Positions 57,113 to 58,305 of a stretch of DNA of 64,000 bases are shown here, piece by piece. The notes under the pieces were generated by a model, which searched no databases, had not been told where the DNA came from, and saw only the letters and a list, made by a program, of their open reading frames with translations. This stretch comes from Winogradskyella sp. J14-2 (lineage in GTDB: Bacteria; Bacteroidota; Bacteroidia; Flavobacteriales; Flavobacteriaceae). Made by a program: the position numbers and the translations under genes. The first letter of the stretch is position 1. Every line of letters begins with the position of its first letter. The DNA is taken from assembly GCF_001971725.1 (NCBI RefSeq), contig NZ_CP019388.1, forward strand, positions 2,994,501-3,058,500, read 5' to 3'.

Positions 57113-57319
57113 ATGAAGAATTCTAAAAAACGAATTTCTAGAGCCATAGGTACAATGGTTATAGTATGTGCGTTGTTTATGTCTACGGACATAAACGCAC
57201 AAGGACCTCCAGGAGGAGCGACTGATACACAGGATGTTCCCTTAGATGGTGGCCTAATTGCCTTGGTAATTGGTGCTGCAGCGTTTGGAGTTAAAAAATT
57301 ACGAGATAATTTGAAGTAA
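57113..57319 (+). CDS. 68-residue exosortase-type (PID-CTERM-like) target protein
   Basis: Signal peptide 1-30 (ALFMSTDINAQ). The mature part is tiny: GPPGGATDTQDV, then the motif PLDGG (43-47), a hydrophobic helix LIALVIGAAAFGV (48-60) and a basic tail KKLRDNLK. This motif-helix-basic order is the architecture of PEP-CTERM-type exosortase substrates, and the PLDGG resembles PID-CTERM tails of Bacteroidota. After cleavage at the motif only about 12-17 residues would remain. It starts 14 bp after the giant gene and ends one base before the exosortase gene, so it is probably that enzyme's own substrate. Confidence 0.85.
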   Translation: MKNSKKRISRAIGTMVIVCALFMSTDINAQGPPGGATDTQDVPLDGGLIALVIGAAAFGVKKLRDNLK

Positions 57320-57320
57320 C

Positions 57321-57917
57321 GTGATAAAGCTTAAGACATTATTAAGCGACATTCCAACACCAATAAGGCTTTTTTTAGGAAAAGCCTTATTGTTTTTTGT
57401 TGTATGGAAGATCGTATATATAGGTTTTTTGTTGGAATCCAAGGTTTTAGACCATGCGCTTACAACACATATAGGCGATGCATGTGTTGAGATATTAAAT
57501 AATTGGACTTCTATGTCTGGTTTTAGAGCTGTTAGAGAAGCAAAGACTTCTATTTATGAAGGCGAGTCTACAACAGAAATTGCTTCACTCATATTACATA
57601 ACGATAGAAGAGTTTTATATATCGCGGACCTTTGTAATGGCTTAGAATTAATTGCATTGTACATTGGCTTTATTGTATGTATACCTTCTTCATTTTGGCG
57701 AAAAGTTAGATATATAATTATAGGTGTAATTATACTCGATTTAGTGAATATAGCTAGGTGTATAGGCCTAATTTATTTACAAGAGTACTATGAGTATTAT
57801 TTTGATATTGCCCATAAATACATATTTAATGTTACTGTATATTCGGTTACCTTTTTATTATGGGTAATCTATACCAGAAAAATCCATTTAAATAATGAAA
57901 CTTTACAAATCAGATAA
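57321..57917 (+). CDS. Exosortase/archaeosortase family membrane protein
   Basis: 198 residues, GTG start. Several membrane helices. The catalytic triad of the family is in place: Cys105 in ADLCNGLEL, Arg146 in LVNIARCIGL and His165 in FDIAHKYIFN. These cysteine transpeptidases cut CTERM-type tails near the membrane and transfer the protein to an acceptor. The 68-residue gene one base upstream fits as its substrate. The exact subfamily (XrtF or other) could not be fixed from memory. It overlaps the next gene by 23 bp. Confidence 0.88.
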   Translation: MIKLKTLLSDIPTPIRLFLGKALLFFVVWKIVYIGFLLESKVLDHALTTHIGDACVEILNNWTSMSGFRAVREAKTSIYEGESTTEIASLILHNDRRVLYIADLCNGLELIALYIGFIVCIPSSFWRKVRYIIIGVIILDLVNIARCIGLIYLQEYYEYYFDIAHKYIFNVTVYSVTFLLWVIYTRKIHLNNETLQIR

Positions 57918-58305
57918 GATTCGTTTTATAATGGGTCTTATTATTATTTTTATACTATATTCTTGTTACTATATATTTATTGCTGAGCATAGAGATACAG
58001 CAATGATACCAAGAAGGCTAAGGCATTTTATAAGTCTTCTATTTACGGTTGCAGTTTACTTTGCAGGAACTTTTCATTTGGGAAAACTCAAAGCAACTTG
58101 GATGTCAAAGTTTTGGCACATGGTACACATCAGTGGATTGTGCATAATAACTGGTATAGGATTGTTTGATTGGTTGTTTCTTGAAGGAAATACTATACCA
58201 AGACTTAGCATCTTTGCAAGGTCAATTCAAGAAATACTAATTTCACCTTTAATGTATTTAGCAATGGGCTTGCTGAATAATTTACTTATAAAACCTGCAA
58301 ATTAA
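57895..58305 (+). CDS. Exosortase-linked membrane protein of unknown function
   Basis: 136 residues, about four membrane helices (around 9-28, 46-60, 76-96 and 115-131). Between the first two lies AEHRDTAMIPRRLRHF, a basic loop. It overlaps the exosortase gene by 23 bp in another frame, so it is translationally coupled. It does not resemble the XrtF-associated family as I remember it. It may be an acceptor, a partner subunit or a stabiliser. It ends overlapping the convergent pepT stop by 4 bp. Confidence 0.75.
   Translation: MKLYKSDKIRFIMGLIIIFILYSCYYIFIAEHRDTAMIPRRLRHFISLLFTVAVYFAGTFHLGKLKATWMSKFWHMVHISGLCIITGIGLFDWLFLEGNTIPRLSIFARSIQEILISPLMYLAMGLLNNLLIKPAN

Follow-up and report, generated by a model that had tools for sequence, protein, structure and literature searches.

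A PID-CTERM protein, exosortase and membrane-partner cassette behind a T9SS-sorted protein gene in Winogradskyella sp. J14-2

Genes of the cassette

The window analyzed, a stretch of 64,000 nucleotides of Winogradskyella sp. J14-2 DNA, comes from a home genome that is a single contig of 3.35 Mb, 99.97% complete. Three closely packed genes lie on its forward strand, as do all the features of the cassette given below. The first (57113..57319, ATG start) codes for a PID-CTERM protein of 68 aa, and a 1-bp gap separates it from an exosortase gene (57321..57917, GTG start; 198 aa), which overlaps the gene for a 136-aa membrane partner (57895..58305, ATG start) by 23 bp. Upstream, on the same strand, the gene of an 1883-aa secreted protein (51447..57098) ends 14 bp before the start of the 68-aa gene. 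The scores of this protein (PF18962, 34.2 bits, cut-off 27; TIGR04183, 39.9 bits, cut-off 23) identify it as T9SS-sorted, with a type A C-terminal sorting domain. Given the 14-bp spacing, the T9SS gene and the PID-CTERM gene are likely on the same transcript. A further T9SS-sorted protein of 304 aa (PF18962, 38.9 bits) is encoded upstream of the 1883-aa one, at 49879-50793.

The 68-aa protein belongs to the NCBIfam family PID_CTERM (NF046080), which it matched at 39.4 bits (cut-off 26) over residues 42-66. An older Pfam release gave no match to it; precomputed Pfam PF28310 was present on all 39 of its homologues among the matches listed. Its score against TIGR04200 (PExPT-CTERM), 13.3 bits, was below the cut-off of 40. 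The protein begins with a hydrophobic segment, a predicted Sec signal peptide (residues 1-29; 57113..57199) that was identified by reading the sequence, without a predictor, and would be cut after INA, before Gln; this Ala29-Gln30 pair was invariant in alignment A3 (25 sequences). There follows the predicted mature peptide QGPPGGATDTQDV (57200..57238), which extends for 13 residues up to the Pro of PLDGG, if a second cut falls just before that motif. The remainder is the PID-CTERM sorting signal (57239..57316), consisting of PLDGG, a hydrophobic helix and the basic tail KKLRDNLK. In eight pairwise comparisons among seven Winogradskyella-type copies, dN/dS of the gene was 0.02-0.18, which excludes a chance ORF and indicates purifying selection. 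Corresponding values for the exosortase and partner genes, where dS could be reckoned, were 0.07-0.22 and 0.05-0.22. We conclude that all three genes are maintained.

Membership of the 198-aa protein in the exosortase superfamily follows from its score against TIGR04178 (50.2 bits, cut-off 23). The nearest named model was that of XrtX (NF046081; 122.4 bits, cut-off 170), and the XrtF model (TIGR04128) gave 58.2 bits (cut-off 90). Both scores are below the cut-offs, and the enzyme is thus in neither named subfamily; we place it in an unnamed one near XrtX and XrtF. Against Pfam PF09721 the protein scored 22.6 bits, below the gathering score of 25.7; the newer PF09721.16 was precomputed on all 120 of its relatives among the matches listed. 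Conserved Cys, Arg and His residues have a catalytic role in exosortases. The candidates here, Cys105 (codon 57633..57635), Arg146 (57756..57758) and His165 (57813..57815), were unchanged in 28 of 28 aligned relatives. An AlphaFold2 model of the enzyme had a pLDDT of 74.9 and a pTM of 0.67.

The 136-aa partner matched no family over cut-off in NCBIfam or Pfam. Neither the XrtF partner model (TIGR04127) nor the XrtX partner model (NF046082) matched it, and profile comparisons with the two partner families returned probabilities of 0.39% (A7-A5) and 0.35% (A7-A6), respectively. AlphaFold2 predicted a four-helix bundle (pLDDT 85.8). The motif W-x(4)-W-H-x-x-H (Trp69, Trp74, His75 and His78), located in a predicted helix, was invariant in 35 aligned partners; binding of a metal or heme, or a part in catalysis, is conceivable.

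An earlier, sequence-only reading of this DNA had described a tight three-gene unit, and its coordinates, gap and overlap were exact. It had further proposed a secreted 68-residue protein with a PLDGG-helix-basic tail and a short mature part, an enzyme with the three catalytic candidates named above, and an unknown membrane protein as the third product. These proposals are borne out by the NF046080 match and the predicted 13 residues, by the 28/28 invariance, and by a third protein that fits no named family and is predicted to form a four-helix bundle.

Distribution, substrate size and the T9SS link

Scanning genomes with the exosortase alignment yielded 56 cassette loci. The partner gene was present in 55 of them, the sole miss (L008) being a locus that stops at a contig edge. 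The A3 profile picked up a PID-CTERM ORF at 45 of the 56 loci; the 11 where it found none were L009 (contig start), L060 and L061 (a PIN variant) and eight others. Co-occurrence with the exosortase, which the sequence-only reading had put forward as its check, was thus mostly favorable. Cassette-type exosortase genes broken over several frames were seen in L053, L062 and L063, and L062 is the second copy in a Confluentibacter whose other copy, L045, is intact.

Across 149 Flavobacteriaceae genomes, each representing a different genus, the cassette exosortase type (defined as an XrtX-like match below the XrtF cut-off, with a partner) occurred in nine, and the partner was adjacent in all nine; one more XrtX-like match below the XrtF cut-off, on G145:C6, had no partner. 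A further exosortase type was seen in a cassette genome at L114 (G145:C6:163000-173500), with 100.5 bits for XrtX and 53.4 bits for XrtF. An over-cut-off PID-CTERM protein was encoded directly upstream of the exosortase in eight of the nine genomes; in the ninth (G124), such matches were on other contigs. With ribE-block matches excluded, the nine genomes had one to three over-cut-off PID-CTERM matches each, in frames of 69-163 aa, so that some contained two or three PID-CTERM substrates. Within Winogradskyella, the cassette exosortase (over 280 bits) was found in nine of 60 genomes. We conclude that the cassette is accessory, not core. Downstream of the exosortase, at a distance of ca. 550 bp, four Tamlana loci (L022, L028, L034 and L040) have an extra small PID-CTERM gene; upstream of the cassette, they code for a protein of 1471-1480 aa with an end that looks response-regulator-like by eye.

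The sequence-only reading had regarded the tiny substrate as odd compared to known exosortase substrates, and this view did not hold. All 58 over-cut-off PID-CTERM matches in the 149 genomes were in open frames of 63-163 aa. In a set of 247 genomes of the phylum, 42 had PID-CTERM matches, and each of the 42 also had an XrtX-like exosortase match (E <= 0.001); among the matches listed for this set, one frame was of 995 aa and the others were of 183 aa or less. A small substrate is therefore the rule of the PID-CTERM family, and to set it against large PEP-CTERM proteins is to compare different families. What stands of the earlier reading is that the exosortase, its PID-CTERM substrate and the conserved partner form one unit. 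It had also named many larger PLDGG/PIDGG proteins in the same genome as a finding that would speak against it. The home genome has a single PID-CTERM match over the cut-off, the 68-aa protein itself, which is thus not an unprocessed minor member among larger ones.

The number of residues before PxDGG could be read in 44 cassettes (the 11 without an A3 match, and L057 and L059, which have a PIN motif, were left out); where a cassette had several PID genes, the count refers to the PID gene closest to the exosortase, and in L010 the ORF of a T9SS protein, next towards the exosortase, was passed over in this choice. There were 49-115 residues in 29 cassettes, 73 in two more, and 35-44 in the remaining 13. 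In the long-mature substrates (e.g., L018, L019, L025 and L039), the mature part is hypervariable and has low-complexity stretches rich in Cys/His, Lys or Gly; the C-terminal signal, by contrast, is nearly constant across them.

Wherever 35-44 residues preceded PxDGG (13 of 13 cassettes), the PID gene was located 9-41 bp behind a same-strand gene (gaps to the nearest PID gene, calculated from coordinates, were 41 bp in L048 and 9 bp in L051). The product of the upstream gene was long or cut by the contig end, and in 12 of the 13 it was T9SS-sorted by Pfam; in the thirteenth, L048, the protein directly upstream had no T9SS match and an earlier protein of the cluster had a sub-threshold one. In 29 of the 31 cassettes with longer substrates, no real same-strand gene was found within 100 bp. 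Of the longer-substrate cassettes, L050 and L055, whose upstream proteins had sub-threshold T9SS matches, were scanned with Pfam, and the others were judged by strand and distance with a simple ORF caller, an ORF of 67 aa that overlaps the L039 PID gene being treated as spurious and the upstream distance in L045 being reckoned as 122 bp. A Fisher test of substrate length versus T9SS link gave 2e-9, a value on which we do not lean because it counts related loci as independent, and L048, L050 and L055 as T9SS-linked despite sub-cut-off or missing matches.

In the Hyunsoonleella locus L051, a pair of cargo gene and tiny gene occurs twice in a row, with 9 bp in each, followed by one exosortase and one partner. 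In L010, the tiny gene and the exosortase gene are separated by the gene of a 277-aa T9SS-sorted protein (L010:4624-5457); the signal of this protein is followed by QGPPDGGTDTADT, which resembles the tiny peptide itself, and the protein may be a functional fusion or the result of chance recombination. Based on the 14-bp spacing in the window, the 12/13 pairing, the doubling in L051 and the L010 protein, our best guess is that the upstream T9SS cargo is what the tiny peptide serves.

XrtF and a tiny proline-rich protein beside ribE

The target of XrtF is described as unknown in a 2025 paper. Of the same 149 Flavobacteriaceae genomes, XrtF was present in 94 and a tiny Pro-rich PID-CTERM protein, searched for with model A4, in 96. 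Both were found in 93 genomes, XrtF alone in one (G031), the tiny protein alone in three that are 84-88% complete (G015, G051 and G083), and neither in 52 (Fisher P 2.7e-35, for genomes that are related by descent and hence non-independent, and for a model derived from proteins of XrtF genomes). All 43 genomes with an over-cut-off PID-CTERM match also had XrtF.

The gene of the tiny protein is usually located beside ribE in a ribE-pdxA-rpmF block, away from xrtF. Examination of 48 over-cut-off PID-CTERM loci away from cassette exosortases led to recognition of the ORF in 47, and in 37 of these the neighbors were ribE (opposite strand), pdxA, DUF177, rpmF and usually fabH and accB, in that order. 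The other ten comprised five cassette-type loci in cassette genomes (L099, L101, L102, L104 and L108), two that are the second copy in their genome (L110 and L111), and L073, L084 and L085; XrtF-type genes outside the ribE block were found, for example, in G087 and G053. Neighboring ribE/pdxA genes were also present at 17 of 20 further loci, most of them weak matches, among which were those of G015, G051 and G083. In 30 genomes without XrtF, pdxA was located in all and ribE was within reach in 28, and no tiny PID-CTERM ORF was found at pdxA in any of the 30 (ca. 1.5 kb searched on each side). In the best-populated genus of the family, ribE/pdxA neighbors were seen at all but one of the 12 best loci. 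Counted by eye, 43 of the 61 sampled genomes of that genus matched A4 in a short frame at ca. 1e-4 or better, which indicates that the A4 model or the tiny gene fades there.

The syntenic tiny proteins of model A4, for which start codons were set by hand, have in common a signal peptide, a Pro-rich stretch and a PIDGG-helix-basic tail. In the table of the loci away from cassette exosortases, start codons were trimmed by rule, and too far in several cases (e.g., L067, L078, L083, L093 and L110). The cut site was clear in 31 of the 37 syntenic proteins, and their mature parts had a median length of 16 residues (range 8-24), half of them proline. Because it co-occurs with XrtF in 93 of the 94 XrtF genomes, we regard the tiny PID-CTERM protein beside ribE as a candidate for the XrtF target. 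The home genome contains XrtF (TIGR04128, 222.7 bits) with a TIGR04127 partner near C1:1225 kb, and a second tiny PID-CTERM-like protein (NF046080, 12.7 bits) beside ribE, near C1:1964655-1964864. Thus, together with the cassette, two sets of exosortase, partner and micro-substrate are present in this genome.

A probably dedicated pre-peptide and its predicted product

The sequence data show the genes and their families, conservation, co-occurrence and synteny, and we infer the pairing of enzyme and substrate, the cleavage, the transfer and the function of the cassette. The cassette enzyme is probably dedicated to the 68-residue pre-peptide, which it would cut near PLDGG, joining the 13-residue Gly/Pro peptide to an acceptor in the envelope. 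The pre-peptide is predicted to pass through Sec and to be cleaved behind Ala29, which would remove the signal peptide and make Gln the N-terminal residue; its C-terminal helix would keep it in the inner membrane. By analogy with exosortase relatives, Cys105, with Arg146 and His165, would then perform the cut and transfer the new C-terminus. Of the 13 residues of the product, the first would be Gln, or pyroglutamate, and the last would bear an added group; pyroglutamate N-termini are found in secreted proteins of Bacteroidota. In cassettes with short substrates, the peptide probably serves the upstream T9SS surface protein as an anchor, a cofactor or an assembly aid.

Exosortases have been proposed to cut near the motif and to attach the newly formed C-terminus to a compound as yet unidentified (PMC7468200). 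The downstream membrane protein would be a required partner, as judged from F. johnsoniae, where much less biofilm and no zorbs are reported upon deletion of either xrtF or the adjacent partner gene (PMC10936215). These matching phenotypes support both partner dependence and an envelope role. The biofilm and zorb phenotypes of xrtF are also reported for sprA, porV and porU mutants, and for FJ0334 and FJ0651 mutants, which are outside the T9SS, and the sprA and porV mutants were unlike xrtF in another test (PMC10936215). The phenotypic link between XrtF and the T9SS is thus not specific.

Three other readings were weighed. The tiny protein could stay uncut, as a small structural or regulatory subunit (a dummy substrate) of an exosortase-partner complex. 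Its very small size, the single over-cut-off match at home and the tight operon agree with this, and near-strict co-occurrence suits a subunit as well as a substrate. However, PxDGG, helix and basic tail retain the layout of a sorting signal, relatives carry the same C-terminal signal on longer, varied proteins, as substrates do, and the signal is also found on extra proteins away from the enzyme. The pairing with a T9SS gene, moreover, points to the envelope, and we consider an uncut subunit improbable.

The cassette exosortase and XrtF could also overlap, one processing the peptide of the other, with the cassette a redundant or decaying copy. Such an overlap would fit the presence of XrtF in all nine cassette-type genomes among the 149 and in the home genome, the patchy occurrence of the cassette in the genus, and the frame-split copies in the relatives L053, L062 and L063. 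It is unlikely, given that the two partner families are without detectable homology, that the C-terminal signals of cassette and XrtF-type proteins differ, and that all three cassette genes are under purifying selection. Export of the protein as a short diffusible peptide signal that is sensed would suit the predicted mature length of 13 residues, the sequence kept among Winogradskyella-type copies and the response-regulator-like end encoded upstream in the four Tamlana loci, but is very unlikely, as mature parts differ greatly in both length and sequence among the other cassette substrates, XrtF-type peptides have proline content rather than sequence in common, no sensor gene was seen among the immediate cassette neighbors listed outside those four loci, and the T9SS pairing again points to the envelope.

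Exosortases, PID-CTERM proteins and small partners are known kinds of components, and the proposed dedicated cassette can be compared with several described systems. Like the XrtF system (TIGR04128 and TIGR04127), it encodes a single small membrane partner behind a short exosortase; judged by co-occurrence, the XrtF system also has a tiny PID-CTERM protein. The window enzyme differs in its XrtF score (58 bits versus a cut-off of 90), the partners are non-homologous by profile comparison, and the window substrate gene is in an operon after a T9SS gene, whereas the XrtF-type gene is usually beside ribE. XrtX (NF046081 and NF046082) is the nearest named exosortase model, and the PID-CTERM proteins of XrtX genomes, often several per genome, are mostly small; the window enzyme, however, is under the 170-bit cut-off and its partner family is unmatched. 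Like PEP-CTERM/EpsH systems, the cassette combines a membrane exosortase with a substrate that has a signal peptide and ends in motif, helix and basic tail, but those systems often have many substrates (35 in Nostoc punctiforme; PMC12188702) and exopolysaccharide loci, in contrast to one tiny substrate beside a T9SS protein in the window. XrtJ with PExPT-CTERM also has a short-target model (TIGR04200, 57 positions), for which the window protein is sub-threshold; small exosortase targets are therefore not new as such. The motif of that system is different, and it belongs to other phyla. What is new, within the literature searched, is a candidate for the XrtF substrate, an unnamed partner family, and an operon of cargo, peptide, exosortase and partner.

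More generally, short Flavobacteriaceae exosortases may be makers of peptide conjugates rather than general sorters of proteins, each of which would place ca. 13-16 residues from its own dedicated pre-peptide on an envelope molecule required for a T9SS-dependent life on surfaces; the XrtF target would then be the protein encoded beside ribE, and the window would hold a cargo-tied, accessory version. We put this forward tentatively, at somewhat under an even chance. F. johnsoniae requires XrtF to form biofilm and to colonize surfaces (PMC10936215), and co-occurrence singles out one candidate gene for its target, usually at a fixed locus. If the conjugate of 13-16 residues is real, exosortases would not be limited to sorting proteins but would produce small modified peptides as well, and two separate surface-sorting systems of Bacteroidota would be joined in the T9SS-linked cassette.
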